A stretch of 64,000 nt of DNA from Chitinophaga sp. (GTDB taxonomy: Bacteria; Bacteroidota; Bacteroidia; Chitinophagales; Chitinophagaceae): contig NZ_JAFAIX010000013.1 of assembly GCF_019236475.1 (NCBI RefSeq), forward strand, positions 62,001 to 126,000. Reading direction: 5' to 3'. The notes beneath the pieces were generated by a model. That model ran no database searches and was not told the DNA's origin. It worked only from the letters and a program-made list of their open reading frames with translations. Shown piece after piece: positions 571 through 29,885 of the stretch (position 1 is its first letter; every line of letters starts with the position of its first letter). The translations under genes and the position numbers were made by a program.

Positions 571-651
571 AATAAGGAAGGGAAATAACGTCTGCGACAT
601 CATTTCCCTTCCTTATTTTTTCGTCGTTCCTGCCCGCTGGGCAAGGACGAC
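571..651. repeat. two-hairpin intergenic element, copy A
   Basis: Hairpin 1 has perfect 16-nt arms (571-586 with 602-617) around a core reading GTCTGCGAC, with an A-rich left side and a T-run on the right. Hairpin 2 (about 622-650) is CGTCGTTCCTGCCC-GCT-GGGCAAGGACGAC with two imperfect pairs. It lies between convergent genes, so hairpin 1 can act as a bidirectional terminator. Related copies occur at 6596, 23639, 27166 and 29806, with a single-hairpin relative at 13938. Confidence 0.85.
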
Positions 652-664
652 AGGCTATAGAGAA

Positions 665-1414
665 TTATTTAGTGTAAGTGATTTTAGTGACATGTACCGC
701 TGCACCATCCGGGCTATCTGGGTGATATTCAATTTCGACAGGATAGCCAGAATCGTTATATTTATATTTATAATATATCACATAGGATCCACTACCATCC
801 GTTACTTTTTCTTCCAAAACATTATTCTCACTGTAGAAAGTACGATAGTCGGCAGATATTGCTCCCAACAAGCTATAATAGCCATTTGGCGCTTTATCAT
901 ATTTGTATTCACGCGTGCTGGTAACGCGCCCACTAGCATATCTTTCTTGTTTGATAATGTTCTTTCCGTCCCAGTAGAGTTTTTCTACTAACTCAGTACC
1001 ATAGTACATTTCAGTTTGGCGATGCTGTGCATCAAATACGTACCTTGTAGTTCCTCCAGGTGCGTCTACCATCTCGCCATTGCTATTGTAATAGATGATC
1101 CAGTTACCCATTTGGGTTAATCTTCCGTTCTCATACGATAACTGTCGATCAAATGCCACATAAGAATGGAATCCATCTGAATTATGACGGAAATAGGCCA
1201 TGCGCTTCATTGTTTTATCTGTATTGTATTCATAGACGAAGCTGTCTATTGGATCCAATATCTGTACAGGATAAAGTTTTACTTTTTCTGCTGGAGGAGT
1301 GGGAGTATCTGTTCCAGTACCTGGCTTAGGTTCATTTGGTATCATGGGTTCAACAGGCTTAGAACAAGATATTATCATGCTCACGGCGAATATGCCCAGT
1401 AAGATTTTTTTCAT
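665..1414 (-). CDS. predicted lipoprotein of unknown function
   Basis: A 249-residue protein with a clear type II signal peptide: MKK, a hydrophobic stretch, then a lipobox-like IISC with the lipidated cysteine at residue 17. A Pro/Thr/Gly-rich linker follows (about residues 20-45). The rest is beta-rich with many Tyr/Asp/Gly positions, such as YEYNTDKT and YKYDKAPNG, reminiscent of YD/RHS-like or DUF4595-like hairpin repeats seen in Bacteroidota lipoproteins; this likeness is an impression, not a match. It probably sits on the outer membrane. It is convergent with the dipeptidase and divergent from the MBG-repeat protein. No function is assigned. Confidence 0.75.
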   Translation of the reverse strand: MKKILLGIFAVSMIISCSKPVEPMIPNEPKPGTGTDTPTPPAEKVKLYPVQILDPIDSFVYEYNTDKTMKRMAYFRHNSDGFHSYVAFDRQLSYENGRLTQMGNWIIYYNSNGEMVDAPGGTTRYVFDAQHRQTEMYYGTELVEKLYWDGKNIIKQERYASGRVTSTREYKYDKAPNGYYSLLGAISADYRTFYSENNVLEEKVTDGSGSYVIYYKYKYNDSGYPVEIEYHPDSPDGAAVHVTKITYTK

Positions 1415-1548
1415 AGGAAGGTTTATTTAGGTGGAGCAAAATTAGGAATAATAGATATTTCCCGGACATGAAATCCTTGTTAATCCAGTAGCCATCAAAT
1501 GGATTGGTTTCTTCGCTATTTGTTTTTTCTTATCATGTATATCAATAA

Positions 1549-1581
1549 TTGCATGCCTACATTAAATTATATCTAGCTTTG
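1549..1581 (+). promoter_or_regulatory. candidate Bacteroidota promoter for the MBG-repeat protein
   Basis: A -7 box TAGCTTTG (1574-1581) matches the Bacteroidota TAnnTTTG pattern. A TTG lies 22 bases upstream (1549-1551), close to the expected -33 spacing. The start codon follows 27 bases later. Confidence 0.45.
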
Positions 1582-1608
1582 CGCCATCATTATTTTTAAT
1601 CCTTACCT

Positions 1609-4600
1609 ATGAAATCGGAGAGCAAACCGAGGTCGATCGCTGTAGCGCGATTATTTTTTGTACTGGTATGCTGTTGCAGCATTTTATTTCCTAAACTTTC
1701 AAACGCCCAGGTGAGTGCGCCTACTGTACAGGCCTCTTGGGTGCAGGCGAGTGATAATGCCAGTCCTACCCTCTATTTTAATTGGCAGAATGGAAATGGG
1801 GAAAAGAGAGCTGTTTTTTGGGGCAGAGGCTCCTATCCGGATTTTGCAAGTTTTCCCGCTGTGGGAACAGAGTTCCAGGTAGGCGACCAATGGTCTAATT
1901 GGAAATGTGTATATACAGGATCGGATAATTTCGCCAGTTATGTGGAACCAACAACCGGAGTTCCTTATACAGTTTTCGTTGTAGAGTATAATATTGATAA
2001 AAGTACAGGCAAAGCATACTACAATGTAGATATGGACTGGCGCTATTATAACTATAAAATCGTCTGGCATTCGGCAAGGGATATTGTCTGTGATGTTCCT
2101 GTTAACTACCGGGAAGAAATTCCGTCCGACCCTAAAGATTTTATATTACAGATTATGGGTTGGGTACAGGATGCTCAATTATTCGCTGATACAGATACAA
2201 CGACCTATTCCATTTTAACTGCCAAGAAGGCTTCCAGTGATTCGTCCTGTGGCGTCAGGGCTTATTTTTCATCAAGTGCCACAGATACAATTACAATAAA
2301 ACTTGGTATAGGCAATCTGGATGATCTGCCCAATTACGATAACATTCTGATTTCATCTGGCCGTGATGCCAATGTCGGACAATCATCGCTAAATGAGAAC
2401 AATGATGTCAAAAGTCTGACAACATTAATTAATAATAATCAGGCTACTATTGATGGTAGCAATGCTTATATAAAATTCGTCCCAGGAGCAGCGTGTTACA
2501 ACGTCAGAATTGGTTTGAAAAACAGCCCAATTGCCAAACAGTCTGTAGTTATTTATTATGTCGCCAGAATTGTAGCGCCTCCTACATTAGCAACTGATAA
2601 TACGGTGGGTTGTATGGGAGATTACATTAAACTTAATGCTACACCTTCTTATAATGCAGGTGTACGATGGACCAGTGATAGTGGTGAAACTTCCTATTCC
2701 GAAGATGGTGGGTTTTATACTCCTCAATTAAACCGGAATCGGACCTTCTACGCACAGTCAGTACATAAAGCTTCGGGATGTGTTAGTCCAGTATCTGTTC
2801 CATTCACTGTCAAAGCGCTGGAAAAGCCTGTCATTACGCTAGCCCCTGTCAATACAACTGCTAACATTGGCGACAGTACCAGCTTTAGTATAAAAGCCAC
2901 AATAAACGACTGGACTATAAGTGGCTATGATTGGAAGGTAATAAAAACGGATGGCTTCTATTACAATATCTCTGACGATGCTACCTACAGCCGCAGCCAC
3001 ACTGGACAATTAATTATCAGTAAGGTTACCGCAGATATGAACGGTTACCAATACATTTGTATTCCCTTTAGTAACTGTTCTCGTAGCAGCGATCCGGTAA
3101 CACTTACTGTCAGACAGCCACAAACGCTGACTTTCACTTCACAAACAGCCGGAAGTACCGTATCTGCTAAATATGGAGATAATGCTATCAGTGCTACAGC
3201 CACCTCTACATCTTCATTACCGATAGTTTACAGTAGTAATAATACCAGCGTAGCCAGCATCGATAATGCAGGGAAAGTGACTGTAAACGGAGTAGGCACA
3301 GCTATGATCACTGTTAGTCAGGATGGTAATGATAACTTTACCACTGCTACTCCAATTAGCTTAACACTGAACATTGCGCCGAAAGCAATTACAGTTAACG
3401 TAAATGCACAAACGAAAATATATGGCACAACTGATCCTGCATTAACCTATACCTCATCAGGATTAATCAATAATGATACTTTAACCGGTAGCCTCAGCAG
3501 ACTCCCAGGCGAAAACGTAGGTAACTACGGCATCACACAGGGTTCCGTGTCTGCCGGAAATAATTATAGCATCACTTTTAATAGCAATAATCTTACTATT
3601 AATCCAACTGCTTTAACGATCATCGCCGATCCTAAAAGCAAAAGTTATGGCAGTCAAGATCCGGTACTGACCTTTACCGCCACGGGATTAGTCAGGAAGG
3701 ACACCGTTATGGGAAAACTGAGCAGAGTACCAGGTGAAAATGCAGGTACTTATGCCATCACGCAAGGATCTATATCTGCCGATAATAACTATACGATCAA
3801 CTTCACTGGCAGCAACCTGACTATCACACCAGTTGCTTTAACTATTAATACGGAAGAACAATCGAAAGTCTACGGTGCACCAGATCCTGTATTAGCCTAT
3901 ACTGTAACCGGTTTAGTGAATAATGAAATCGTCACAGGTTCATTGACCAGAATGCCAGGTGAAAATATTGGCGAATATGCCATCTTACAAGGCACTTTAT
4001 CTGCAAGTAGCAACTATAATGTATCCTTCAATAGCAAAAACCTGAAAATTACACCTGCCAATTTAACCATTACTGCGGATGCAAAAACGAAGGTATATGG
4101 CACAGTTGATCCGGCTTTGACTTATACTGTTTCCGGATTAGCTAATAATGATAAAATCACTGGTACATTAACCAGAGTAGCGGGCGAAAATGCTGGTAGT
4201 TATGCCATTACACAAGGCAGTGTGAATGCAAGTGATAATTACAATCTTGTTTTCAACAGTAATAATCTGATTATTACGCCAACTACGGTAACCGTTACTG
4301 CTGATGCCAAATCAAAAGTTTACGGCACAGTTGATCCAGCTTTTACCTATACTGTTTCCGGATTAGTTAATAATGATAAAATCACTGGTACATTAACCAG
4401 AGTAGCGGGCGAAAATGCCGGTAGTTATGCCATTACACAAGGCAGTGTAAAAGCAGGTGATAATTACAATTTTGTTTTCAATGGTAATAACCTGAATATT
4501 GCGCCGGCAACGCTAACAGTTACCGCCGACGCCAAATCAAAAGTTTATGGCACGAATGATCCAATCCTCACCTATACTGCTACCGGGCTTGTTGGCGGAG

Positions 4601-5688
4601 ATAAAATCAGCGGCACATTAAGCCGAAATGCAGGCGAAAACGTAGGCAGTTACACCATTACACAAGGTTCGTTATCTGCCGGGAATAATTACAACCTAAC
4701 ATTCAATAACAATACACTGAATATCACACCTGCTGCATTGCAAATTATCGCTGATGCGAAATTGAAAGTATATGGTAGTAATGATCCTGTATTGACATAT
4801 ACCACTACCGGATTAATCAGCGGAGATAAGATCATTGGAAGTTTAAGTAGAGACGCGGGTGAAAATGCTGGCATTTACACTATCAGTCAGGGAAGCATAA
4901 ACCCTAGCAATAACTACACCTTTAATTTCACCGCTAATACATTCACTATTTCCAAGGCGCCACAATCCATCACCTGGACGCAGGACTTGAATATCGGTTG
5001 TAATGGAATCAATACTATCCAACTCAACGCAGCTACTAACAGCGGTTTACCAGTAACATACAGTATCGCCAATAACGATATCGCTACACTTAGCGGCAAC
5101 AGCTTAACCGCTAATACTATTGGCATTGTAGCTGTAACAGCCACCCAGGATGGTGATAACAATTACGAAGCTGCTGCTTCAGTTAGCAAAGAGCTGAAAG
5201 TAATGTTACCATCAGCCGTAAGACAGCAACTGAATAATTTATTGATCTTCGATAACAGCAACAATAATTACCTGACCTGGCAATGGTATAAAAACAACAT
5301 TTCTATACCAGGAGCTACCAACGCGTATTTCAGTGATCCAACGGGATTAAATGGATCTTATTCCGTAATAGCTACAGACAAGAATGGTAATAACATACAA
5401 TCATGTCCGATCCAGGTAAGCGCGGCTACCGCCAGAATTGCCGGTATCAGGGTTTCTCCAAATCCTGCGATCAAAGGACAAAGCGCTACCCTCACCTGCA
5501 ACTTCACAGAAGATGCACTCATCGGCGCTATGCTATATATCACTGATATCAGAGGTAACGCTATCGACCAATTGAAAAATGTACATCCGATCACAACCAT
5601 ACAAATGCCTGCAAATAGTGGATTTTACATCATCACATTGCAAATGGCCAATGGACAGAAGATTACTACCAATGTTATCGTTCACTAA
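1609..5688 (+). CDS. large secreted MBG-repeat / Ig-like protein with T9SS C-terminal sorting domain
   Basis: A 1359-residue exported protein. Order: signal peptide (about 1-34, ending SNAQ); a beta-rich N-terminal region; Ig/PKD-like segments (about 330-500); a Big_2-like domain (about 505-590); seven tandem MBG-type repeats of about 75 residues (about 593-1115), each carrying K-YG--DP-L-YT--GL and GEN-G-Y-I-QG signatures; a second Big_2-like domain; and a C-terminal type A sorting domain (about 1280-1359) beginning IRVSPNPA and ending in a basic/Val-rich strand. The family expectation is export by the type IX secretion system and attachment at, or release from, the cell surface. Function is probably adhesion or surface display (inference). 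Repeats 4 and 5 are nearly identical at DNA level. It is followed by a terminator and a barrel-protein gene. Confidence 0.88.
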   Translation: MKSESKPRSIAVARLFFVLVCCCSILFPKLSNAQVSAPTVQASWVQASDNASPTLYFNWQNGNGEKRAVFWGRGSYPDFASFPAVGTEFQVGDQWSNWKCVYTGSDNFASYVEPTTGVPYTVFVVEYNIDKSTGKAYYNVDMDWRYYNYKIVWHSARDIVCDVPVNYREEIPSDPKDFILQIMGWVQDAQLFADTDTTTYSILTAKKASSDSSCGVRAYFSSSATDTITIKLGIGNLDDLPNYDNILISSGRDANVGQSSLNENNDVKSLTTLINNNQATIDGSNAYIKFVPGAACYNVRIGLKNSPIAKQSVVIYYVARIVAPPTLATDNTVGCMGDYIKLNATPSYNAGVRWTSDSGETSYSEDGGFYTPQLNRNRTFYAQSVHKASGCVSPVSVPFTVKALEKPVITLAPVNTTANIGDSTSFSIKATINDWTISGYDWKVIKTDGFYYNISDDATYSRSHTGQLIISKVTADMNGYQYICIPFSNCSRSSDPVTLTVRQPQTLTFTSQTAGSTVSAKYGDNAISATATSTSSLPIVYSSNNTSVASIDNAGKVTVNGVGTAMITVSQDGNDNFTTATPISLTLNIAPKAITVNVNAQTKIYGTTDPALTYTSSGLINNDTLTGSLSRLPGENVGNYGITQGSVSAGNNYSITFNSNNLTINPTALTIIADPKSKSYGSQDPVLTFTATGLVRKDTVMGKLSRVPGENAGTYAITQGSISADNNYTINFTGSNLTITPVALTINTEEQSKVYGAPDPVLAYTVTGLVNNEIVTGSLTRMPGENIGEYAILQGTLSASSNYNVSFNSKNLKITPANLTITADAKTKVYGTVDPALTYTVSGLANNDKITGTLTRVAGENAGSYAITQGSVNASDNYNLVFNSNNLIITPTTVTVTADAKSKVYGTVDPAFTYTVSGLVNNDKITGTLTRVAGENAGSYAITQGSVKAGDNYNFVFNGNNLNIAPATLTVTADAKSKVYGTNDPILTYTATGLVGGDKISGTLSRNAGENVGSYTITQGSLSAGNNYNLTFNNNTLNITPAALQIIADAKLKVYGSNDPVLTYTTTGLISGDKIIGSLSRDAGENAGIYTISQGSINPSNNYTFNFTANTFTISKAPQSITWTQDLNIGCNGINTIQLNAATNSGLPVTYSIANNDIATLSGNSLTANTIGIVAVTATQDGDNNYEAAASVSKELKVMLPSAVRQQLNNLLIFDNSNNNYLTWQWYKNNISIPGATNAYFSDPTGLNGSYSVIATDKNGNNIQSCPIQVSAATARIAGIRVSPNPAIKGQSATLTCNFTEDALIGAMLYITDIRGNAIDQLKNVHPITTIQMPANSGFYIITLQMANGQKITTNVIVH
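3387..4955 (+). repeat. seven in-frame tandem repeats (~225 bp each) encoding MBG domains
   Basis: Seven units of about 74-75 codons inside the secreted protein. Protein similarity is high throughout. Units 4 and 5 (about 4060-4510) are almost the same at nucleotide level over about 120 bases, with only a handful of substitutions, which indicates a recent duplication or gene conversion. The array keeps frame and can expand or contract in whole domains. Confidence 0.9.
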
Positions 5689-5690
5689 AG

Positions 5691-5722
5691 AAAAATAAGA
5701 CCGGTCTACCGGTCTTATTTTC
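5691..5722 (+). terminator. intrinsic terminator after the MBG-repeat gene
   Basis: A hairpin with AAAATAAGACCGG arms around a TCTA loop and a T-rich 3' side, starting 2 bases after the stop codon. A-tract and T-tract flanks make it usable in both directions. Confidence 0.8.
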
Positions 5723-5744
5723 TCTCGGATTTAATCTACATCAA

Positions 5745-6578
5745 ATGATCAGAATTATTATAACCACCTGTATTTGCCTGGTACTCCTCTCCACAACTGC
5801 GATGGCACAGGAATTAGGAATCGGGCTTAGCGGCGGCATGCAAGGGCTACAATACAAATTCAACCAACAAAACAGTCAACTTAAAGCAGGGACTATCCTG
5901 GATATCGGATATACATTTCCGTTAGGAAAAAATTTGGGCATTATCTCAGGCATTACTTGTGGAACCTATACTTCCGAAATAGTGCTAAATGGGCAACACG
6001 CTTTTAACTCTTACGAGGTAGATGAATCTGGATCCGCCTTTATCTATAATGTTACCATCAATGGATACAAAGAACAACAACGTTTCATCGCAGCGGGAAT
6101 TCCTGTAATGCTGCAGTATCATACAAGCGGTAAAACCCAGTGGTACATCAATGGCGGCGCCAAATTGCTCTTTCCATTCAGTGGGAAATATACTTCCAGC
6201 GCCACTCAAGTGATCACAACAGGATTTTATCCTGATTATAACATTCTACTGAAAGACCTACCGCATCTGGGCTTTGGCACTGTCAACAACTGGAGAAGCG
6301 ATAAAGGCGCACTTTCCCTGAAGGCTACTGCTACCATCAGTGCGGCAACAGGTATTAGTTTTGAATGGAATGATTTCCGGTTGTATACAGGCATCTACAT
6401 GGACTACGGACTCAACAATCTCGCAGACAAGCCTAGTGACGGCACTTTGGTCACCTATTCTTCCTCAGGTATCAATAACATGCATGCCAATAGCATATTA
6501 AAAAGGAATGGCATGGAGAGCGCTAAACTGCTAGGGTATGGCATTCAAGTGCGATTAGGCATTCCTACCAGGAAATAG
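5745..6578 (+). CDS. outer-membrane beta-barrel protein of unknown function
   Basis: A 277-residue protein with an N-terminal signal peptide ending AMAQ (cleavage near residue 21). Alternating hydrophobic strands follow, with Gly/aromatic-rich turns such as GIGLSGGMQG, GAKLLFPFSGKY and YTGIYMDYGLNN, in the style of the porin-like outer-membrane barrel (OMP_b-brl) families of Bacteroidota. It lies on the same strand just behind the T9SS-exported MBG protein but beyond a terminator, so co-transcription is uncertain. It could be a partner or anchor of that protein (inference). Specific function is unknown. Confidence 0.7.
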   Translation: MIRIIITTCICLVLLSTTAMAQELGIGLSGGMQGLQYKFNQQNSQLKAGTILDIGYTFPLGKNLGIISGITCGTYTSEIVLNGQHAFNSYEVDESGSAFIYNVTINGYKEQQRFIAAGIPVMLQYHTSGKTQWYINGGAKLLFPFSGKYTSSATQVITTGFYPDYNILLKDLPHLGFGTVNNWRSDKGALSLKATATISAATGISFEWNDFRLYTGIYMDYGLNNLADKPSDGTLVTYSSSGINNMHANSILKRNGMESAKLLGYGIQVRLGIPTRK

Positions 6579-6595
6579 TATCTCCCAAAAATATG

Positions 6596-6678
6596 GACGA
6601 AAAAAAGAAGGAAAATGGTGTCTGCGACACCATTTTCCTTCTTTTTTTCGTCGACCCTGCCTGCTGGGAAGGGTCGAC
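6596..6678. repeat. two-hairpin intergenic element, copy B
   Basis: Hairpin 1 is a perfect 27-bp stem (6596-6622 with 6626-6652) around a TGC loop; its core reads TGGTGTC-TGC-GACACCA, a compensated variant of TGACGTC-TGC-GACGTCA. Hairpin 2 (6650-6678) begins GTCGACCC and ends GGGTCGAC, again compensated relative to other copies. It lies between convergent genes (barrel protein and leu operon). Confidence 0.88.
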
Positions 6679-6718
6679 AGGGAGGGGGAGCCAATACCTA
6701 CCTCTTATAAATAAAAAT

Positions 6719-6745
6719 GGCCGCTGAGGCACTACTTCAGCGGCC
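6719..6745 (-). terminator. intrinsic terminator of the leu operon
   Basis: Read on the minus strand, GGCCGCTGA pairs with TCAGCGGCC across a 9-base loop, followed by a T-rich tract (the A-rich bases 6708-6718 on the plus strand). It sits 31 bases downstream of leuA. Confidence 0.8.
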
Positions 6746-6776
6746 GAAATCAAACGTAAATCAATCGTTATGAATA

Positions 6777-8282
6777 CTAGTAGATTTTATTCAATGCATC
6801 TACATAGGCATGTACAGAAGCATTCACGATGTCGGTAGAGTAACCGAAGCCGTAGTAAGACTGCCCGTTATATTTCACGCGCATATTTACTTTACTTACA
6901 TCTTCAGAACCTCCATGCATCGCCTGGATACTGAATTCATCCAGATCGATGTCGTCTTTAATGATCTCGTGAATAGCATTGATAGTAGCATTCACAGGAC
7001 CATTACCTGCTGCACTGGCTTCTTTCTCCTGACCGTTTACCAGCAGTTTCACAGTAGCCATTGGGCGCAGCGGATCGCCGCATACCACTTGTAACAGGGT
7101 AACTTTGATACCTTTATCATCGTATGTTTTAGTATCGCCATCGCCCATCAGTTGCAACAGATCAGCATCGGAGATTTCTTTCTTTTTATCTGCCATCAAG
7201 AGGAAGCGTTCGTAAACTTCATCCAGGTTGATTTTATCGATTTTATAACCGAGGCGCTCCAGGTGATGTTTCAATGCATGACGGCCACTACGTGCTGTCA
7301 GGATAATCGCATTGGAGTTAATACCCACATCTTCTGGATTCAGGATTTCGTAGTTTTCACGGTGTTTCAATACGCCATCCTGGTGGATACCGGAGCTGTG
7401 CGCAAACGCATTGCGACCCACGATCGCTTTGTTTGGCTGCACTGGCATACGCATCATCGTAGAAACCATGTTACTGATTTCGTAGATACCTTTTGAATTG
7501 ATATTGGTATGATAACCGAGGGCATGATGCGTTTTCAGAATCATGGCTACTTCTTCCAGAGAAGTATTACCTGCACGTTCTCCTATACCGTTGATGGTAC
7601 ATTCTACCTGGCGTGCACCGTTTTGAATACCTGCAATCGTATTGGCAGTAGCCAGTCCGAGGTCATTATGACAGTGAACAGAGATGATGGCTTTATCGAT
7701 ATTGGACACATGATCCATCAGGTACTTAATTTTAGCACCATATTGATCAGGTAAGCAATAGCCGTTGGTATCAGGAATATTAACAGTAGTAGCGCCTGCG
7801 GCGATCACTGCTTCAATCATCTGTGCGAGATACGCATTATCAGCGCGACCAGCATCTTCTGCATAAAATTCCACATCATCTGTGAATTTGCGGGCATATT
7901 TTACTGCATCTACTGCACGTTGGAGGATTTCCTCACGGGTGCTGTTGAATTTGTATTTGATATGCATATCGGAAGATCCGATACCGGTATGAATACGGCC
8001 ACGTTTTGCAAAGCGGAGCGCATCTGCAGCAGCGTCTATATCTTTGGTATTAGCGCGGGTAAGGGCGCAAATAACTGGTTCTGAGATGGCTTTGGAAATT
8101 TCCACAACACTCTGGAAATCGCCAGGGCTGGAGATAGGAAAACCAGCCTCGATAATATCCACGCCAAGCGCTTCCAGCTTCTTCGCGATTTCAATTTTTT
8201 CTACAGTAGTTAACTGGCATCCTGGTACCTGTTCACCATCGCGCAGGGTGGTATCAAAGACGTATACACGATTTTTATCCAT
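6777..8282 (-). CDS. leuA: 2-isopropylmalate synthase
   Basis: The first committed step of leucine synthesis, condensing acetyl-CoA with 2-oxoisovalerate. The 501 residues match the full-length bacterial enzyme. The N-terminal TIM-barrel signature [12 protein letters not shown] is at residues 10-21, and the metal-binding HCHND motif is near residue 202. Family-typical GERAGN and SGIHQDG segments follow. The C-terminal LeuA dimer/regulatory domain (about 370-501) is present, so leucine feedback inhibition is expected. It is the last gene of the leu operon, 29 bases behind leuB, and ends at a strong terminator. The 2-isopropylmalate assignment over citramalate synthase is supported by the complete leuBCD set beside it. 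Confidence 0.96.
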
Positions 8283-10026: not shown

Positions 10027-10032
10027 TATTAA

Positions 10033-13915: not shown

Positions 13916-13937
13916 GGAGACACGAAACCCTCGTGCT

Positions 13938-13977
13938 TTATTTTGTCGTCCCTGCCTGGGCTGGGGCGACAAAATAA
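13938..13977. repeat. single-hairpin relative of the two-hairpin element, copy C
   Basis: TTATTTTGTCG (13938-13948) pairs perfectly with CGACAAAATAA (13967-13977), continuing inward through GU and GC pairs to a loop. The GTCGTCCCTGCC part matches hairpin 2 of the other elements, but hairpin 1 is missing. Just upstream, CACGA/TCGTG (13921-13935) forms a small hairpin preceded by the GGGAGACACG motif shared with three other gene ends. It lies between convergent genes. Confidence 0.7.
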
Positions 13978-13990
13978 ATAACCTGCAACC

Positions 13991-19815: not shown

Positions 19816-19823
19816 TATTTTTG
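19816..19823 (+). promoter_or_regulatory. candidate -7 box for the DUF3857 gene
   Basis: TATTTTTG fits TAnnTTTG and overlaps the first possible GTG start. A transcript from it would begin downstream of that GTG, which supports the ATG at 19844 as the real start. No clear -33 element was found. Confidence 0.35.
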
Positions 19824-19843
19824 TGATGTTAAATCCTTTACCC

Positions 19844-22800: not shown

Positions 22801-23608
22801 ATTCAAAGCGAATAACAAAACGTATTACCAGGAGCTGACTTCCAACACATTGCCATTTGGCGTACTGCCGTCATCACTGGCTGGCGCGCAGATACTGAAC
22901 ATCCCGTACGATTATAAACCAGGTGAAAAGCTGACCATGATTCCCACCAGCAATTATTCACCGAAATCCATTTATCGTCGGATGGAGGTAACATTGAAGG
23001 ATGCGGATGCGGTCATTCAGTCCAATTGCGCTTATGTAGGTGAGCTAACGGAAGGCTTGAGAGCTGACTATCTCCATAAAACACCGGACGAGACCAAAGA
23101 TGGCGTTCAAACACAGGTAGGCAGAAATTTCAAAAACCAGGTAGTACTAGATAAGTATAACTTCAGTAATCTGGATAACCTTGCAGACTCACTCTGGCTC
23201 AATGCTCACTTCACAGTTAAAAATGAGGTCATCAGTGTGGGCGATATCAACATGATCAAATTGCCTTTCATGGAAGTAATTGCTACTGCCAACATCTTTA
23301 CGCCGGAAGCAAGGCAGTATCCGTTTATGTACCGCGATTATGAAGCGGTAGATAACTATCTAACGGAAATGCACATACGCCTTTCCGATGCCAAGAAATT
23401 TGACCAGGTACCGGCTACTGTTAACCTGAAAATGGGCGATATGGTATACGCGCTGGAGTTCAATAAAGTAGCAGACGACCACCTAGTGGTAACCAGACGC
23501 TTTACCACCAATAGCAACAAAACGCTCACCGCAGCCGAAATGAAGGAACTGGAAACCTTCTTCAATGGCATCATCAAAGCAGAGCAGAAGTATATCTCTT
23601 TCAGATAA
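19844..23608 (+). CDS. DUF3857 / transglutaminase-like protein with TPR region
   Basis: The start at 19844 is chosen because it gives a proper signal peptide (MKRAVSTIILLTL, cleavage near GDY); the upstream GTG/ATG codons lie at the promoter-like box. About 1254 residues, periplasmic or surface-facing. TPR-like helices fill about 25-650. A DUF3857 beta domain (about 660-860) is followed by a transglutaminase-like core with Cys940 in GDCKDLSTLF and His982 in DFNHCIIAF. The position that is usually Asp before the LPFG turn reads QELTSN, a possible Glu substitution. C-terminal beta domain. Family members are often next to polysaccharide or stress genes; the substrate is unknown. Confidence 0.85.
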   Translation: MKRAVSTIILLTLCPLLLFAGDYEKAWEAIHKNDFKSATIYLQKAIKAGGPKKNSAIATLVLLNNMTGYDADFTKLYFNPLKELQHPAPYTYAMWFFNALLGEYGPKQGVQMENLQRILSDSLNYNGSMNAAAAYFIGINHQLSDRADLAKPSYNRVYALEKWAYVGPFDNVMGSGFDKDYGPVNKPTGPAFVSSNNNSPVNWFVPLYTSYEGWNTIGSFFPVKSAVTYAQTFVNATTDMDPILCLGSTGAMKVWVNDKLIISQPEERTTEMDWWKAKVHLNKGFNRILVQIGFTEDNARQNFIVRLTDQNYRAINGIASQTSPEKYQIDQSKDQPTLIPHFAEEYFKKQIAAQPEDLIHSIMLSRVYIRNQEWDKAKSVMAKLLKAYPKDAFITNYYLDCMSGTNDKSDFAESLETFKTLTPDNYWTVYAKLLKLEGEKNYTEAQELLNKLISMQGERELTTIKKLELFGEQEKIDSMVQLLKDAYAKYPDNSQIVQTMYQYETQMNNDPAKGIAVLEKFCEKFYDYGMNNLLIKVYLNQGKTDAAVAKMKKMISTAPYQLEYYTPLVKYYFASQKYDSAIHYLNIEHQISPYFHGPLGDIATSYAQMKEKDSAILYFKKALALHAGGFGYREQLRMLENRQQVDKYFPTMDYYKEIEKYTQKPQDSTQPYSFIFDEKNVVLYPEGAGEQMINTAIYIQNKKGINRWKEISLPYNGVYQDMMIVKAEVIKPSGARIPAETEENQIVFTKLDVGDVVYYSYKVTSVGRGRLKREFWDKFYLSDYVPTNISTYNILVADTIPLYYEYRNGGNAKPTITQHEQFKMYSWREENVPPIRTEFYMPGITEIGKVLHVSTVKDWDVIGEWYSDITREQSNENYEVNEAFKEIFPNGTANVDDQTKAKKIYDYIEKNISYSSVSFRQGAYVPQKAGKTLVTKLGDCKDLSTLFLAFARKAGLPANLILVSTRENGEHNMQLPSLDFNHCIIAFKANNKTYYQELTSNTLPFGVLPSSLAGAQILNIPYDYKPGEKLTMIPTSNYSPKSIYRRMEVTLKDADAVIQSNCAYVGELTEGLRADYLHKTPDETKDGVQTQVGRNFKNQVVLDKYNFSNLDNLADSLWLNAHFTVKNEVISVGDINMIKLPFMEVIATANIFTPEARQYPFMYRDYEAVDNYLTEMHIRLSDAKKFDQVPATVNLKMGDMVYALEFNKVADDHLVVTRRFTTNSNKTLTAAEMKELETFFNGIIKAEQKYISFR

Positions 23609-23638: not shown

Positions 23639-23714
23639 AAAAAGCGCAATTGACGTCTACGACGTCAATTGCGCTTTTTGTTTTTCGTCGTCCCTGCCCA
23701 CTTGGCAGGGACGA
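23639..23714. repeat. two-hairpin intergenic element, copy D
   Basis: Hairpin 1: 19-bp perfect stem (23639-23657 with 23661-23679), core TGACGTC-TAC-GACGTCA, outer arms AAAAAGCGCAAT. Hairpin 2 (23686-23714): CGTCGTCCCTGCC with GGCAGGGACGAC around a CACTT loop. The GGGAGACACG motif follows at 23747. It lies between convergent genes. Confidence 0.88.
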
Positions 23715-23758
23715 CAGGCAGGAGCATCCTGATTTATAATAATTTCGGGAGACACGAT

Positions 23759-24349
23759 CTACTCTTCCTCTTCAAAGCCCCACTGGTCCAGGAGTTGATT
23801 ATACTGCGCCTCTGGTAATCCAGGTTTGTCATAATGCCCTGCGAGGGTTTTCTGACGCATCGCTTCGTAAATGCTCACGGCACAGGCCACAGAAATATTG
23901 AGCGACTTGATAATTCCCATCTGAGGGATGATAAAATTACCGTCTACCTTTTCGATCAATTCCTCACTCACGCCCGCATGTTCATTGCCGAAAACCAAGG
24001 CTACAGAACCTGTAAAGTCAATATCATAGAGACTTACGGCATCGTGTGCTAGGTGCGTGGCTAAAATTTTATCATATTTGGCGCGTAAAGCGGTAAAACA
24101 GGCATCAATATTGTCAAATTGATGCACGGTTAGCCACTTGGCGGCAGAACTGCTACTTTTGGCACCCCATTTTTTATGCCGGGGAATTTTGGTGTTTAGT
24201 ACATAGATCTCTTGTATCCCAACAGCATCGCATGTACGCATAACAGCGGAAATATTGTGCGGATCTTGCACATTTTCCAATACCACCGTCAAATTTCCCT
24301 GCCGTTTATTCAGTACAGACAATAATCTTTCCCGTCTTTCTGGTGTCAT
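23759..24349 (-). CDS. trmH: tRNA (guanosine-2'-O-)-methyltransferase, SPOUT family
   Basis: 196-residue SPOUT (trefoil-knot) methyltransferase, expected to make Gm18 in tRNA. The N-terminal TPERRERLLSVLNKRQ matches the TrmH-specific extension. Knot motifs are visible: ENVQDPHNISAVMRTCDA (motif 1), LVFGNEHAGVSEE (motif 2) and IPQMGIIKSLNISVACAVSIYEAMRQ (motif 3). The short length and N-terminal extension favour TrmH over RlmB, which carries a longer L30e-like domain. Confidence 0.9.
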   Translation of the reverse strand: MTPERRERLLSVLNKRQGNLTVVLENVQDPHNISAVMRTCDAVGIQEIYVLNTKIPRHKKWGAKSSSSAAKWLTVHQFDNIDACFTALRAKYDKILATHLAHDAVSLYDIDFTGSVALVFGNEHAGVSEELIEKVDGNFIIPQMGIIKSLNISVACAVSIYEAMRQKTLAGHYDKPGLPEAQYNQLLDQWGFEEEE

Positions 24350-24432
24350 ATAAAAAAATTATTTATCCTGAAGGGCGTAAAATTACGAAATAAGGTAATT
24401 TCACCGCACAATCTTAAAATCAGACAAAACCT

Positions 24433-27147
24433 ATGCTCAAAAAGATACTCAAATTTACGGGCATCACCTTTATTATCCTGTTGCTAGCTGCTATTGCTAT
24501 TCCCTACTTCTTTAAGGACAAAATCATGGCCAAAGTGAAGTCGGAACTCAACGACAAGCTGAATGCCAAAGTAGACTTTAAAGACGTGGATATCAGCCTG
24601 ATACGGCATTTCCCTCGACTGGCAGTTGGCCTCGAAGACCTACAAATCACTGGCAAGGATCGTTTCAAAGATGATACCCTCCTTTCTGTACACAAAATTG
24701 ATGTAGCCCTCAATCTGATGAGCGTTATCAAAGGTAAACAGATGGATATCTACAACATCGCGCTGGTACAGCCACGTATACACGCTATTGTGGATAAAGA
24801 CGGCCATCCGAACTGGGATATCACCAAGCCGGATACTGCCACCAAAACCCCGACTGATACCAGCAAAAGCAGTTTTGCCCTCAGTCTCAAACAATATAGC
24901 ATCGAAGATGCCTATATCAGCTACGACGATCGCCAGGGTAATATGTTCCTGGAAGTAGCCGGCCTAAATCACAAAGGTAGCGGCGATTTCACGCAAGATA
25001 AATTCACCCTGAATACCCATACAGATGCCAATGGTATTACCTTCAAATATGGTCTGATTCCATATTTGAACAGCGTAAAAACCGCGCTGGATGCAGATAT
25101 CCAGATCGATAATACCACCAGCACCTACACGCTGAAAGATGCTAAAGCATCCCTGAACAACCTGGCATTGAATTTCGGAGGTCTGTTCCACATTGTAAAT
25201 GATTCTACCTACGGCATGGACTTTACCTTTAAAGCGCCAGGTAATGATTTTAAAGACTTCCTGTCGCTGGTACCTGCCATTTACGCGGCTGATTTCAATA
25301 AGATCAAAACCAGTGGTAAAGCCGCTTTCGATGGTTTTGTAAAAGGAAATTACTCTCCGAAACAAATGCCTTCTTTCGGCTTGAACCTGGCAGTAACCGA
25401 TGGTTTCTTCCAATATCCTGATCTGCCAAAACCAGTTAAAAACATCCAATTGGCGGTTAAGATCTCCAATCCTGACGGCGTTCCAGATCATACGGTGATC
25501 AATATGTCTAAAGGCCACCTGGAAATGGACAATACCCCTGTAGATATGCGGGTACTGGTGCAGACCCCGATTTCTGATATGTATGTAGACGCGGCCGCAA
25601 AAGGTAAATTGGATCTCTCTACAATTCCCCAGTATGTAAAACTGGCCACAGGTACAGCTCTCCAAGGTCTCCTCGATGCAGATATCAGTGCAAAAGGTAA
25701 CATGAGCGCTATCGAAAAACAGCAATATGATAAATTCTATGCTGCCGGCACCTTGCAACTGAGCAATATGCTCTATAAAAGCAAAGATTATCCTGACGGC
25801 GTAAAAGTGAATAACCTGTTCCTCCAATTCAATCCTAAAAACGTAACCGTGAAGGATCTGAATGCGGAATATCTTGGCTCTCATTTCCAAGCTGACGGTG
25901 AAGTGAATAACCTCCTCGCCTACACGCTGAAAAACGAAGCCCTGGATGGTAAATTCAATGTAAAAGCAGACCAGATCAACCTGGATAAATGGATGGCTAC
26001 TTCCGGTACTACTCCTGCACCAGCTCCTGCTGAAAAGAAAGAAGGAGAAGCCGCCGCCGCTGGTAGTGCGCCATTCCCGGTTCCTGCGAACCTGAATATC
26101 GCCATGAATGCCAATGTAGGCAAAGTACACTATGATAAAGTAGACCTGAATAATCTCGTTGGTGCGTTGACGGTAAAAGATGAAACCGTATCCATGCAGC
26201 AACTGAAAGCGGATGCTTTACAAGGTTCAATGGCGATCACTGGTAGCTACAGTACTAAAGTGAGCAAACTGAATCCAGATATCAACCTCACCTACGATGT
26301 ACAGCGCATCGATATTCAACAGGCATTTAATGCGTTCAATACTGTTCGTAGCCTGATGCCTATCGGTAAATTCCTGAACGGCAAAATCTCTTCCCAACTG
26401 ACCATGCATGGTAAACTGGGCAAAGACATGATGCCGGAAATGAATACCCTCACTGGTGATGGTAATCTCCTGCTGATTGAAGGGGTACTGAAACAATTCG
26501 CTCCGGTAGATCAGCTCGCCAGCACACTGAATATCTCTCAATTGAAAGATGTGAGTCTCCGTGATATTAAAAACTACTTCGCTTTCGAAAATGGCCGCGT
26601 AAAAGTGAATCCATTCAAAGTGACCGTAGCGGGTATTCGCATGGATATTGCCGGTTCTCATGGATTTGACCAATCGCTGGACTACAGCCTGCAACTGGCC
26701 CTGCCACGCAGTCTGATGGGTACTGCCGGTAATACCCTGGTCAACAATCTGGCTTCACAAGCACAGAGCAGAGGCGTGAATGTAAATGTGGGCGACAGCG
26801 TTCACCTGGCTGTTACGATGGGTGGTAATATCATGAAACCTGCCCTGAAAACAGATCTCCGTGAAAGCGCTAACAACCTGAAAGCACAAGCTACGCAGCT
26901 CGTGAAAGATAAAGTAGACACCATCAAACACACTGTGCGCGATTCTGTTAACTCCCTGAAAAATCAGGCGGTGAACACCGTTAAAGATGAACTGAAAAAC
27001 CAGTTACTGGGTAAAAAAGACAGTACTTCCAACGGTAATGGCGTACAAAATCTCGGCAAGCAAGCCGGCGAATCTGCCAAAGGCGTGCTGAATGGCCTGT
27101 TTGGTAAGAAAAAGCAGCAACCTGCTACAGATACTACTAAACACTAA
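24433..27147 (+). CDS. AsmA-like envelope protein
   Basis: 904 residues. An N-terminal membrane anchor (about 5-27) is followed by the AsmA-type start: a KVKSELNDKLNAKVDFKDVDISLI stretch, split here as KVKSELNDKLNAK and VDFKDVDISLI, then FPRLAVGLEDL. Long beta-rich repeats fill the middle (AsmA_2/DUF3971-like). Near residues 530-550 there is a Pro/Ala/Glu-rich linker. AsmA-family proteins are thought to form lipid-conducting bridges between membranes. The C-terminal 80 residues are a Lys/Asp/Val-rich amphipathic region (VKDKVDTIKHTV, VKDELKNQLL) resembling LEA-like 11-mers, an unusual tail. Confidence 0.85.
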   Translation: MLKKILKFTGITFIILLLAAIAIPYFFKDKIMAKVKSELNDKLNAKVDFKDVDISLIRHFPRLAVGLEDLQITGKDRFKDDTLLSVHKIDVALNLMSVIKGKQMDIYNIALVQPRIHAIVDKDGHPNWDITKPDTATKTPTDTSKSSFALSLKQYSIEDAYISYDDRQGNMFLEVAGLNHKGSGDFTQDKFTLNTHTDANGITFKYGLIPYLNSVKTALDADIQIDNTTSTYTLKDAKASLNNLALNFGGLFHIVNDSTYGMDFTFKAPGNDFKDFLSLVPAIYAADFNKIKTSGKAAFDGFVKGNYSPKQMPSFGLNLAVTDGFFQYPDLPKPVKNIQLAVKISNPDGVPDHTVINMSKGHLEMDNTPVDMRVLVQTPISDMYVDAAAKGKLDLSTIPQYVKLATGTALQGLLDADISAKGNMSAIEKQQYDKFYAAGTLQLSNMLYKSKDYPDGVKVNNLFLQFNPKNVTVKDLNAEYLGSHFQADGEVNNLLAYTLKNEALDGKFNVKADQINLDKWMATSGTTPAPAPAEKKEGEAAAAGSAPFPVPANLNIAMNANVGKVHYDKVDLNNLVGALTVKDETVSMQQLKADALQGSMAITGSYSTKVSKLNPDINLTYDVQRIDIQQAFNAFNTVRSLMPIGKFLNGKISSQLTMHGKLGKDMMPEMNTLTGDGNLLLIEGVLKQFAPVDQLASTLNISQLKDVSLRDIKNYFAFENGRVKVNPFKVTVAGIRMDIAGSHGFDQSLDYSLQLALPRSLMGTAGNTLVNNLASQAQSRGVNVNVGDSVHLAVTMGGNIMKPALKTDLRESANNLKAQATQLVKDKVDTIKHTVRDSVNSLKNQAVNTVKDELKNQLLGKKDSTSNGNGVQNLGKQAGESAKGVLNGLFGKKKQQPATDTTKH

Positions 27148-27165
27148 TAATTTAACTTACTGCCT

Positions 27166-27238
27166 GTCGCCCCTGCCCGCTGGGCAGGGGCGACGAAATA
27201 AAAAACGGATTGACGTCTGCGACGTCAATCCGTTTTTT
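27166..27238. repeat. two-hairpin intergenic element, copy E (module order swapped)
   Basis: Here hairpin 2 comes first: GTCGCCCCTGCCC-GCT-GGGCAGGGGCGAC (27166-27194, perfect). Hairpin 1 then follows: an 18-bp perfect stem (27200-27217 with 27221-27238), core TGACGTC-TGC-GACGTCA, outer arms AAAAAACGGAT. Both loops still read TGC and GCT on the plus strand. It lies between co-directional genes. Confidence 0.88.
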
Positions 27239-27310
27239 TATTTATGCCTACTGGCACAGTAATACCAAAAGAAAAATTCGTAACTTATAGAAACCCAAAA
27301 CCCATTCGCC

Positions 27311-27700
27311 ATGATAACAAACATCCTTCACAGTACGTGGTGCAATGCAGCCTTGTTAGCTGGATCGATATTCCTGGTAATGGGCTATCTCATCAGGCGT
27401 TTTCCTCCCAAGAGTATTAAGACCTGGTATGGATACCGTACTTTCCTTTCCACTCGCAACCAAGAAATGTGGGATGCCGGCAACAAAGACGCCGCCATGG
27501 TTTCCCGGAAAGTAGGATTTATACTCATATTACTAGGCATTTGCTGCGCCCTGTTCTTCGAGCGAAAGTCCGATTGGTTTATGTACATCACTGTTGGCGC
27601 GGTAGTAGCAGGAGCCCTCTATATTGCTGGCTACACAGAATGGATGCTAAGCAACGAGTTTGATGAGGAAGGCAAACGGCGTATTCCACCAAAACTGTAG
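27311..27700 (+). CDS. SdpI-family membrane protein
   Basis: 129 residues with three predicted membrane segments: an N-terminal one around ALLAGSIFLVMGYLI, one at GFILILLGICCALFF, and YITVGAVVAGALYIA. The PPKSIKTWYGYRTFLSTRNQEMWDAGN region, here spanning about residues 34-60, is the hallmark of the SdpI C-terminal domain. SdpI in Bacillus confers immunity to the SDP toxin; most homologues of this short single-domain kind are uncharacterised, and no toxin gene is nearby. Followed 66 bases later by an MFS transporter on the same strand. Confidence 0.8.
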   Translation: MITNILHSTWCNAALLAGSIFLVMGYLIRRFPPKSIKTWYGYRTFLSTRNQEMWDAGNKDAAMVSRKVGFILILLGICCALFFERKSDWFMYITVGAVVAGALYIAGYTEWMLSNEFDEEGKRRIPPKL

Positions 27701-27766
27701 GTTATATGACAATTCTTATTTTCTTATGACCCAACTTTGCGGTCTGAAGAAACAAGCAACGAATCT

Positions 27767-28987
27767 ATGACAGACAGCACCATTCATTTAGGCTCAATTA
27801 AGAAAAAAAACTTAGGAATCGCTACTTTATTGGCTTTTGCCATGATCCCCATGTCGGGGTTCGCTACAGACATTTACCTGCCCTCCCTCCCTGGAATGAC
27901 CGCTGCTCTTGGTATTAGCAGCAGTCAAGCGCAGCTCACCCTCAGTCTATTTTTAATCAGCTATGGTGTATCCCAACTCTTTGTGGGCGGGTTACTCGAT
28001 AGCTACGGAAGATATCGTATCTCCCTGGCAGCAATACTTGTATTTCTCGTCAGTTGTATCACCATTGCCAATACACATAGCATATATGTCATTTATGCGA
28101 TGCGTATTATTCACGGCATCACCATTGCCGCCATGGTAGTGGCCAAACGCGCTTTCTTCGTGGACTTATTCACTGGAGAAAAGCTTAAACACTATCTCAG
28201 TCTTTTTACTATTATCTGGTCTACAGGGCCTATTGTAGCCCCTTTCATTGGCGGTTACCTGGAAGTCAGCTTTGGATGGGAATCTAACTTTTACTTCCTC
28301 GCGGGGATTGCCGCCCTTTTATTCATTGGGGAATTAATTTTCAGCGGAGAATCCTTGCAACATGCAATCCCCTTCCATCTGGGGAGTATTATCCGAATTT
28401 ACACTAATATGTTGCGTACCGGCAGCTTTGTACTCGGTATAGTGATGCTGGGACTAGGTTACAGCATGATCATGGTATATAACATGTCTGGTCCGTTCAT
28501 TATTGAGCATCATTTTAACCTGTCTCCGGTTGTTACCGGCTATTGCTCCCTGCTGCTAGGTTTGGCCTGGATGGTTGGTGGCTTTACAGGCAAAGCAATG
28601 ATCGACCGGCCATTCACTCGTAAAATGAATACGAACGTGGTGTTACAGTTACTATTCGCCACCTTGATGTTATTGACATTACAGCGATTGAATACACTCC
28701 CCGTAATACTGGTTTTTGCCTTTCTTGTCCATGTGGGTGCAGGGTTTACCTATAACAACTATTTCACCTATTGCCTGGCTAAATTCCCGAAAAATGCAGG
28801 TATTGCAGGGGGATTAACAGGTGGTTTGTGTTATGTAATCGTGTCTTTCCTCAGTTACCTGATCACCTATGTGTTACCAGCGAAAGACGGCGGTAACCTG
28901 GGGGTTAGCTATCTGTTACTGATACTCGCCTCTATTCTTGTGATGTATAGGGTGAATGTATTAAACAAACGAAACGTGTCTCACTAA
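27767..28987 (+). CDS. MFS multidrug transporter, Bcr/CflA-like
   Basis: About 406 residues with 12 predicted membrane helices. The ATG at 27767 (MTDSTIHLG) is preferred to the TTG ten codons upstream, which lies in a promoter-like CAACTTTG. Helix 1 contains the Bcr/CflA pattern ATDIYLPSLPGM. The motif-A-like loop between helices 2 and 3 reads GGLLDSYGRYRI, and GGYLEVSFGWESNF fits the helix 5/6 region. Expected role: proton-driven export of drugs or small metabolites. No regulator is adjacent. Confidence 0.85.
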   Translation: MTDSTIHLGSIKKKNLGIATLLAFAMIPMSGFATDIYLPSLPGMTAALGISSSQAQLTLSLFLISYGVSQLFVGGLLDSYGRYRISLAAILVFLVSCITIANTHSIYVIYAMRIIHGITIAAMVVAKRAFFVDLFTGEKLKHYLSLFTIIWSTGPIVAPFIGGYLEVSFGWESNFYFLAGIAALLFIGELIFSGESLQHAIPFHLGSIIRIYTNMLRTGSFVLGIVMLGLGYSMIMVYNMSGPFIIEHHFNLSPVVTGYCSLLLGLAWMVGGFTGKAMIDRPFTRKMNTNVVLQLLFATLMLLTLQRLNTLPVILVFAFLVHVGAGFTYNNYFTYCLAKFPKNAGIAGGLTGGLCYVIVSFLSYLITYVLPAKDGGNLGVSYLLLILASILVMYRVNVLNKRNVSH

Positions 28988-29050
28988 ACTATTTTTTATT
29001 TTATTATTTTTACCGCAATCAGCCACAGACCCCTGATTGTCGATTTACCT

Positions 29051-29797
29051 ATGATTCCATTTTGGAGTGATTACTATTATCTCGTTATTGTACTGCAATT
29101 AGCATGTCTTGTTCACGCTATCAGAAGCGGTAACCGCGAAGCCGTTTACCTATTGATTTTCCTGCCAGGAATAGGCGCTGGTTTATATTTTGTCATGGAG
29201 ATATTGCCTGATATTACCAATGGTACAATCGGCCAGCAGTTATTACGGTTTATTTCTCCGAATGGCCGCATCAGGGAGTGGGAAAAACGGGTACAAGTAT
29301 CTGATACTGTTACCAATAGGATGGAGCTGGCTGCCGCATATGCCACACAAAATCATTACGACAAAGCAATCGCACTGGCGCAATCTTGTGCAGCCTCCTA
29401 CTCCTCCGATCAAGGTATTTTACTGCAACTGGCTAGGTTCCAATTCATGAACCAACAATACGCAGATAGCCTCGCTAACTTCGATAAGTTGAATAAAATG
29501 CCAGGCGTAAGAATGAGCAATGTAGCCGATGAACTGATGTATGCACAAGCCCTGGAAGCTACTATGGAAGCTGAAAAAGCAGAAAAGGCCTACCAAAAGA
29601 TCATCCAGGTACATCACTCATTAGAAGCCATGTATTACTACGGACTAATGCTACGCAAACAAGGACGCAACACCGAAGCCAAAGCCCAATTCGAAAGAAC
29701 CAAGGCGGAAATCGGCCTGCATCCAAGATATATCAGACGTACCATCCGCAAATGGGTATGGCTGTCCAGGAAAGAGTTGGCAACGCTGAAAGCCTAA
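29051..29797 (+). CDS. TPR-containing membrane protein of unknown function
   Basis: 248 residues. Two N-terminal hydrophobic segments (YYYLVIVLQLACLVHAI and AVYLLIFLPGIGAGLYFVM) resemble the PLDc_N/NfeD-type double-helix anchor. They are followed by a soluble region with about four TPR-like helix pairs (MELAAAYATQNHYDKAIALA, and ALEATMEAEKAEKAYQKII). Probably a membrane-anchored scaffold facing the cytoplasm (inference). Followed by repeat element F and the convergent efflux operon. Confidence 0.7.
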   Translation: MIPFWSDYYYLVIVLQLACLVHAIRSGNREAVYLLIFLPGIGAGLYFVMEILPDITNGTIGQQLLRFISPNGRIREWEKRVQVSDTVTNRMELAAAYATQNHYDKAIALAQSCAASYSSDQGILLQLARFQFMNQQYADSLANFDKLNKMPGVRMSNVADELMYAQALEATMEAEKAEKAYQKIIQVHHSLEAMYYYGLMLRKQGRNTEAKAQFERTKAEIGLHPRYIRRTIRKWVWLSRKELATLKA

Positions 29798-29805
29798 TTA
29801 TATCT

Positions 29806-29885
29806 AAAAAAATGGGCCGTGACGTCTGCGACGTCACGGCCCATTTTTTTATTTTCGTCGTCCCTGCCCGCTGGGCAGGGACGAC
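29806..29885. repeat. two-hairpin intergenic element, copy F
   Basis: Hairpin 1: 21-bp perfect stem (29806-29826 with 29830-29850), core TGACGTC-TGC-GACGTCA, outer arms AAAAAAATGGGCCG. Hairpin 2: 13-bp perfect stem GTCGTCCCTGCCC-GCT-GGGCAGGGACGAC (29857-29885). It lies between convergent genes. Confidence 0.9.

Follow-up and report, generated by a model that had tools for sequence, protein, structure and literature searches.

Loop orientation follows replication in a genome-wide family of terminator-like hairpins in Chitinophaga

Five gene ends in a 64,000-nucleotide stretch of a Chitinophaga sp. genome (assembly GCF_019236475.1, contig NZ_JAFAIX010000013.1, positions 62,001 to 126,000 of the forward strand; hereafter the window) carry a pair of neighbouring hairpins that belong to a family dispersed through the whole genome. 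Hairpin 1 has a shared core at its tip, inside outer arms that differ from copy to copy and pair almost perfectly; hairpin 2 is a second palindrome. We found that the orientation of the loops follows replication, independently of the direction of the neighbouring genes and of the orientation of the element itself. With a probability of roughly one half, we favour an explanation in which these are terminators whose arms are homogenised, and whose loops are inverted, by template switching during replication, with a GNA loop (GCA, GTA or GAA) settling on the leading-strand sequence.

A dispersed hairpin family at gene ends

A family claim would fail if the genome held only a few copies, and a search for both modules found many. 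The core, GACGTCTGCGACGTC (GACGTC-TGC-GACGTC), occurs genome-wide in 80 exact copies and in 108 at up to one mismatch, or about one per 60 kb; the reversed pattern matches once. The hairpin-2 pattern, a palindrome that matches both strands, was found at 127 places at up to two mismatches, against 0 for its reversed control. In hairpin 1 a variable arm, preceded by an A-rich run, leads into the GACGTC-TGC-GACGTC core; the complementary arm and a T-run come after it. Hairpin 2 usually follows the T-run and a C, and reads GTCGTCCCTGCCC-GCT-GGGCAGGGACGAC, then AGGCAGGAGAGTTTTGCC or a variant of it. It spans about 29 nt plus the tail, with a 13-bp stem mostly starting GTC or GTT, a loop mostly of three bases and a tail mostly AGG or AGA; its foot is mostly CGTC/GACAG, the GTC being paired with GAC.

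Gene context, loops and arms were analysed in a sample of 76 stretches, mostly of 20 kb, around 100 of the 108 core places, together with the window (1.58 Mb of 6.48 Mb in all). The sample holds 112 cores at up to two mismatches and, because it is centred on the core family, densities within it are uninformative for the whole genome. Hairpin 2 lies within 120 bases of a core at 91 of 114 sample places. By our own calls of open reading frames (ORFs), the 112 cores divide into 64 between convergent, 47 between tandem and 1 between divergent genes. In 111 of 112 cases a neighbouring gene ends towards the core, 101 of these 111 within 150 bases, and the nearest gene 3′ end lies at a median of 45 bases. 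A paired bidirectional terminator was among the roles proposed in the original prediction, and this is supported, as far as sequence can speak to it, by the position at gene ends and by the A- and T-tracts that flank the hairpin-1 stems on both sides; a simple terminator scan lists sites 1, 3, 4 and 5 of the window, on a single strand in each case, and leaves out site 2. Hairpin 1 looks like a bidirectional intrinsic (Rho-independent) terminator with a fixed tip, GACGTC-TNC-GACGTC, and would presumably terminate transcription. Hairpin 2 is a separate repeat module that stands beside many hairpins 1. That a shared core and a second module with covarying stems go beyond ordinary terminators, as had been suggested, is borne out by the copy numbers and by the covariation and Watson-Crick (WC) purity described below. 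By eye, in part of the sample, the left flanks of hairpin 1 fall into two recurring classes, about GCTGTATCAAAAA and GGCGATTTTTATAAA.

Loop orientation and replication

The core is asymmetric: where one strand reads TGC, its complement reads GCA. Its orientation matches the majority of its contig or half-contig at 102 of 112 cores, with a single switch inside contig C3, at 626-650 kb (C3 was divided at 635 kb, a point chosen after the switch was seen). In 5000 permutations of the strand labels a mean of 70 and a maximum of 85 cores agreed, and without two contigs of unclear skew the count is 91 of 100. Computed without contigs C4 and C9, the GC skew of the TGC strand was -0.027 (36 stretches) versus +0.032 (33 stretches; p = 1e-7), and the coding fraction on the TGC strand was 0.44 versus 0.58 (p = 0.013). 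Because the TGC strand is C-rich and gene-poor, we assigned GCA to the leading-strand sequence. In the lagging-strand frame the core loops are then TGC at 96 sites, TAC at 2, TTC at 2, CGC at 1 and TGT at 1, versus GCA at 6, GTA at 2, AAA at 1 and ACA at 1 in the opposite polarity; TGC, TAC and TTC in this frame all correspond to GNA on the leading strand.

This polarity is independent of the genes. At tandem sites it is found beside 30 of 32 leading-strand genes and is kept beside 13 of 15 lagging-strand genes, which rules out that the loops follow the RNA of the gene. It is likewise independent of how the element lies. Among the 95 elements with a clear hairpin 2, 73 run from hairpin 1 to hairpin 2 in the lagging-strand frame, all with the common core polarity, and of the 22 that are reversed, 12 keep this polarity and 10 depart from it (versus 0 of 73 forward elements, p = 6e-8). 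The 17 elements without a clear hairpin 2, left out of these orientation counts, all carry the common core polarity. Hairpin-2 loops, read in a fixed 29-base frame and therefore misread in copies with longer loops, are polar too: in the direction of the element, GCT and AGC stand at 27:9 in 86 forward elements and at 1:13 in 28 reversed ones (p = 1.5e-5), and the rarer pairs GAT/ATC, GTT/AAC, GGC/GCC and TGC/GCA lean likewise, in small numbers. The opposite hairpin-2 loops of oppositely oriented elements suggest loop inversions. The loops of C. dinghuensis, which at shared sites are not independent of those here, were kept out of the counts. The orientation of the element itself tracks replication (40:14 at convergent sites, p = 0.0005) and also gene direction (27:3 versus 6:5, p = 0.02).

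Near-perfect pairing of variable arms

Every second hairpin 1 (56 of 112) was aligned, and 98.9% of the 1008 cells pair. Two-sided changes are present at 13 of the 18 pairs, cells with paired changes number 225 versus 50.5 in shuffles, and G.U pairs account for 3 of the 672 outer-arm cells. One detector was applied to all terminators in the sample, with hairpin-2-like and near-core hairpins kept out of the non-family group. By this count, outer-arm pairs in the family are non-WC in 3 of 883 cases at convergent sites (61 hairpins) and 6 of 272 at tandem sites (20 hairpins), versus 38 of 432 (53 hairpins) and 42 of 625 (87 hairpins), respectively, in the other terminators; the rate is thus 0.3-2% in the family versus 7-9% in the others. 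An earlier count that ignored gene context gave 9 of 1155 versus 86 of 1197. A count made directly at the 112 core sites has 4 non-WC pairs among 1120 in the outer arms, comprising 2 of 470 at tandem sites, 2 of 640 at convergent sites and 0 of 10 at the single divergent site.

Comparison with C. dinghuensis and the genus

The genome and its relatives were searched with a covariance model of hairpin 1, as had been proposed. It gave at least 150 matches here and 75 in Chitinophaga dinghuensis (genome G016), both strands being counted in each, and 0-3 in each of the other 32 genomes of the genus (11 of the 32 have 1-3, which we treated as background), so that among the 34 genus genomes searched many copies are found only in these two. 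The relationship is close at the protein level where it was compared, the product of a gene beside site 3 being 97% identical to its C. dinghuensis counterpart. Alignment against 37 stretches of the C. dinghuensis genome, centred on covariance-model matches, gave an alignable place for 40 of the 112 sites. C. dinghuensis carries hairpin 1 without hairpin 2 at C4_114864, C4_115970, C3_1403213, C3_175806 and C2_89212, both modules at C2_91821, C2_689079 and C10_450755, and another hairpin at further places; at 17 of the 40 our script found no hairpin, and the alignments show a hairpin 1 with an altered tip at three of these 17. Because C. dinghuensis has hairpin 1 alone at several sites, hairpin 1 is the older module there, hairpin 2 having been gained here or lost in the sister species. 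The original prediction had joined the two hairpins into one element; they do adjoin at many sites, but they are separate modules, as these orthologous places make plain. Beside one hairpin 1, at about C3:1,402,968-1,403,190, a hairpin-2 unit with its tail is followed by two related units in a row, making three units.

The flanks of shared hairpins are about 75-91% identical between the two species; one shared hairpin has identical 22-bp arms and others differ by paired changes. From the 40 places we chose ten orthologous hairpins by eye and scored their arm pairs 7-18, core pairs 1-6 lying outside the count. Places with quite different hairpins or with 4-5-base loops were excluded, as were the 17 places without a script-found C. 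dinghuensis hairpin (save C3_175806 and C6_145118, read off the alignments instead) and C2_176368, which has an A.C mismatch in the C. dinghuensis core. Of the scored pairs, 79 are the same, 39 have changed on both sides and are still WC, 1 has changed on a single side and 1 is of another kind. In three of the ten the arms are so divergent that the hairpin may have been replaced; the seven with the most similar arms gave 64 same, 19 double, 0 single and 1 other. At C3_321984, read in one frame, the loop is TGT in this genome and GCA in C. dinghuensis, in arms that differ too much to be sure of an inversion.

Template switching as a candidate cause

In the explanation that we favour, the two arms would pair with each other in a DNA hairpin, and a template switch by the nascent strand would copy one arm from the other, a process known as quasipalindrome correction. 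One such event would write paired changes into both arms, so that the arms would be kept near-perfect mainly by repeated copying and not mainly by selection on RNA. A switch to the other template strand would invert the loop. GNA would end on the sequence that the leading strand has in common with the template of the lagging strand. Both this template and the nascent leading strand would probably fold more readily with GNA, which would favour intrastrand correction of the arms. The opposite loop state would be inverted repeatedly until GNA was reached, and GNA would resist renewed inversion.

The single steps have precedents. PMC8794818 describes template switching as giving loop inversion and instantaneous paired changes in rRNA hairpins, holds that inversion is unlikely where the loop is stable and that such loops can promote switching within a strand, and puts template switching in E. 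coli as commoner on the leading strand. A strand bias of template switching is also given, for E. coli lacZ reporters, in PMC7202029, and PMC4686876 has GNA loops forming exceptionally stable DNA mini-hairpins. Nearest-neighbour energies are equal for both loop orientations in DNA, and in RNA are equal save for GTT/AAC, so the GNA stability step leans on this published work. With the quasipalindromes and template-switch mutations described in PMC7202029 and PMC8794818, the present family shares near-perfect arms and would share one-step paired changes, loop inversion and strand bias of the process; it differs in being a natural genome-wide family whose loops keep a standing orientation bias in step with the replichores.

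A number of observations weigh against this explanation. The energies just given scarcely separate the two loop states. Most hairpin-2 loops read AGC, ATC or AAC on the leading strand and thus fall outside the GNA class, which leaves some of the polarity outside the GNA argument. Three-base loops are depleted among the instantaneous paired changes in PMC8794818 (3.5% versus 6.1%). Ten of the 112 cores and 9 of the 36 forward GCT/AGC hairpin-2 loops point the opposite way, and the hairpin-2 loop pair ACT/AGT shows no lean. The dnaA gene lies at C3:1,367,169, away from the polarity switch on that contig, and nine sampled tRNA genes, too few as a strand marker, were assigned 3 to the leading and 6 to the lagging strand. 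(A search for small-subunit rRNA gave no match in the assembly, which is rated 99.6% complete, so rRNA strand is unusable as a replication marker.) Ordinary hairpins show no purine-first lean, at 7 versus 5 among the few (33) triloops outside the family, although in this same small set GCA (4 of 4) and ATT (5 of 5) lie on the leading strand. Within the family, core pairs are more often non-WC (20 of 672) than outer arms (4 of 1120) at the 112 sites, an excess that speaks against simple homogenisation or arises partly from finding the sites by their core. The C. dinghuensis tips are mismatched at C2_176368, C3_175806 and C6_145118, so single-sided core changes do occur there, and the ten orthologous hairpins were chosen by eye with their core pairs uncounted. 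No loop inversion between close strains was caught in the comparison with the single close relative, and a common core at many sites still needs a means of spread.

How hairpin stems can change in sequence and yet stay perfectly paired has long been asked, and the usual answer is selection together with compensatory mutations. A genome with more than 100 copies offers near-perfect pairing at the DNA level, an internal control in its other terminators and, in the orientation of the loops, a signal pointing to replication. If template switching is the cause, it would become measurable in nature, and fork direction would become readable from sequence. We tentatively consider, as a possibility somewhat short of an even chance, that the loops act as a molecular compass: palindromes would invert until GNA lies on the leading strand, orientation would record fork direction, and the family as a whole would keep a natural record of template switching across the genome. 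More boldly, the cell, or one of its proteins, might use loop polarity as a signal. The hairpins themselves are terminator-type structures of a known kind, and the replication polarity of their loops would be a new phenomenon if upheld in strain comparisons. We met no report of such polarity in the literature searched, which was mainly open-access.

Alternative explanations and known repeat systems

Selection on RNA alone could also produce such arms at bidirectional terminators, because a G.U pair on one strand is A.C on the other, so that only WC arms survive; polarity would then reflect the usual direction of the stronger gene. The setting agrees with this, in that 64 of the 112 sites are convergent, 111 have a gene ending towards the core, A- and T-tracts stand on both sides and four of the five sites in the window come up in the terminator scan, and the family's tandem hairpins are more often non-WC (6 of 272) than its convergent ones (3 of 883). 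We regard it as unlikely, however: other convergent terminators, at 8.8% non-WC, do no better than tandem ones at 6.7%, the family's tandem core sites are near-perfect too (2 of 470), and the core polarity is kept at 13 of 15 tandem lagging-strand genes. The likeness to intrinsic terminators is plain (a hairpin with A- and T-tracts at gene 3′ ends, often between convergent genes), and the family departs from them in a fixed 15-nt tip in more than 100 copies, about tenfold fewer non-WC outer-arm pairs and a replication-linked loop polarity. KOPS and Chi are polar DNA signals, and on their model a replication, segregation or recombination protein might bind either the duplex core or the folded hairpin whose loop lies on the template of the lagging strand, selection fixing the orientation. 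A 15-nt core in 80 exact copies despite differing arms, and a polarity of 102 in 112 that is independent of genes and element orientation, are what such a signal would give, and this would make it a new polar chromosome signal in Bacteroidota. A spacing of about one per 60 kb, many copies in only two species among the 34 genus genomes, and hairpin-2 loops that are variable yet polar too make this reading, in our estimate, rather unlikely; together with RNA selection it is the chief rival of the template-switching account. Uptake sequences, which in Neisseria (DUS) and Haemophilus (USS) are placed in terminators, were a further parallel considered.

Insertion offers another source of polarity, in which a repetitive extragenic palindromic (REP)-like mobile element enters as single-stranded DNA in the lagging-strand template by means of a Y1/HUH enzyme. 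The copies are dispersed, palindromic and at gene ends; at several sites where the two species share hairpin 1, this genome has hairpin 2 and C. dinghuensis lacks it; and 73 of 95 elements run from hairpin 1 to hairpin 2 in the lagging-strand frame, which would fit the lagging-strand targeting known of such enzymes (PMC6006769). The original prediction had likewise raised an element processed by a REP-associated tyrosine transposase (RAYT). The search lent this no support, as Y1_Tnp (PF01797) has 0 matches in this genome and 0 in C. dinghuensis but does match in 5 of 14 control genomes and in 3 of 34 genus genomes, and we rejected a RAYT system for this genome. The arms also differ between copies, unlike those of freshly copied elements, the loops do not turn with the element, and no target duplication was noticed in the part of the alignments viewed, outside any systematic search, so that we think insertion very doubtful. 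REPs and REPINs with their RAYTs resemble the family as short intergenic palindromes in more than 100 copies near gene 3′ ends; here the stems are near-perfect, the arms vary between copies, and the hairpin foot carries no unpaired GTAG-type tag, some C. dinghuensis copies having GTAG/CTAC in paired form. The CGTC-tagged REPs of Di Nocera 2013 (PMC3733652), reported there in Bacteroidetes among other phyla and with no dedicated transposase, recall hairpin 2 in that CGTC precedes it. As defined in that article, they have an unpaired tag, 8-9-bp stems starting AT, loops of 4-5, a mostly CCA tail and frequent G.T pairs, and we rejected the identity, since the paired GTC, 13-bp stem, loop of mostly 3 and mostly AGG or AGA tail of hairpin 2 depart from these rules. 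Finally, each hairpin might be young and perfect from a single foldback synthesis, with no time for decay. Such snap-back births would suit the near-perfect arms, and also the many corresponding gene ends where C. dinghuensis has a different hairpin or none detected. Against them stand the several hairpins that both species have, one of which keeps identical 22-bp arms while others show paired changes, and we give this account hardly any credence.

The five window sites and their surroundings

All five gene-end sites of the original prediction are present in the sequence (Table 1), four of them between convergent ORFs as claimed and site 4 between tandem ones. At site 4 the position given as the start, 27166, is real but belongs to hairpin 2, hairpin 1 starting at 27200; the element is reversed, with hairpin 2 to the left of hairpin 1. 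A degenerate core pattern at up to one mismatch matches four of the five sites, against a chance expectation of 0.05, and misses site 2, whose core, GGTGTC-TGC-GACACC, is a paired variant. The site 3 loop, TAC, is GTA on the opposite strand and so still GNA. The site 5 ortholog in C. dinghuensis has an identical core and loop in arms that differ. At gathering score, Rfam matches in the window are to SAM, TPP and tRNA only, with no match to the hairpins.

Table 1. Coordinates and gene context of the five two-hairpin sites, in window positions
Site	Feature	Position	Strand	Description
1	Hairpin 1	567-592/596-621	+	26 bp, 92% complementary; loop TGC 593-595; core AACGTC-TGC-GACATC
1	Hairpin 2	623-651	+	loop GCT
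1	Context	13-543(+) and 665-1414(-)		convergent ORFs
2	Hairpin 1	6596-6622/6626-6652	+	27 bp, 100% paired
2	Hairpin 2	6650-6678	+	GTCGACCC/GGGTCGAC variant; loop GCT
2	Context	5745-6578(+) and 6777-8282(-)		convergent ORFs, the latter with LeuA-type domains
3	Hairpin 1	23639-23657/23661-23679	+	19 bp, 100%; loop TAC
3	Hairpin 2	23687-23715	+	
3	Context	19823-23608(+) and 23759-24349(-)		convergent; ORF and SpoU-type methylase
4	Hairpin 2	27166-27194	-	left of hairpin 1; loop nevertheless GCT on +
4	Hairpin 1	27200-27217/27221-27238	-	18 bp, 100%; loop nevertheless TGC on +
4	Context	24433-27147(+) and 27311-27700(+)		tandem ORFs
5	Hairpin 1	29805-29826/29830-29851	+	22 bp, 100%; loop TGC
5	Hairpin 2	29857-29885	+	consensus; loop GCT, then AGACAGGAACGTTTT
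5	Context	29051-29797(+) and 29902-33084(-)		convergent; ORF and AcrB-type pump

The window also holds a separate repeat with GGGAGACACG or its complement, at 13915, 23747, 38255, 38280 and 39641, including an inverted pair at 38255-38289; the word occurs in 70 copies in the 1.58-Mb sample versus 0 for the reversed word. Beside one of these copies, at 13937-13978, lies a hairpin-2-like inverted repeat, TTTATTTTGTCGTCCCTGCC/GGCTGGGGCGACAAAATAAA, without a hairpin-1 core. A 1359-aa ORF at 1609-5688 has a 225-base internal repeat in about seven copies. A tandem array with periods of 41, 62 and 124 bases (53534-53894) stands directly upstream of a TPP riboswitch at 54037-54130, and a SAM riboswitch at 39725-39840 lies upstream of the ORF at 39961-41196.

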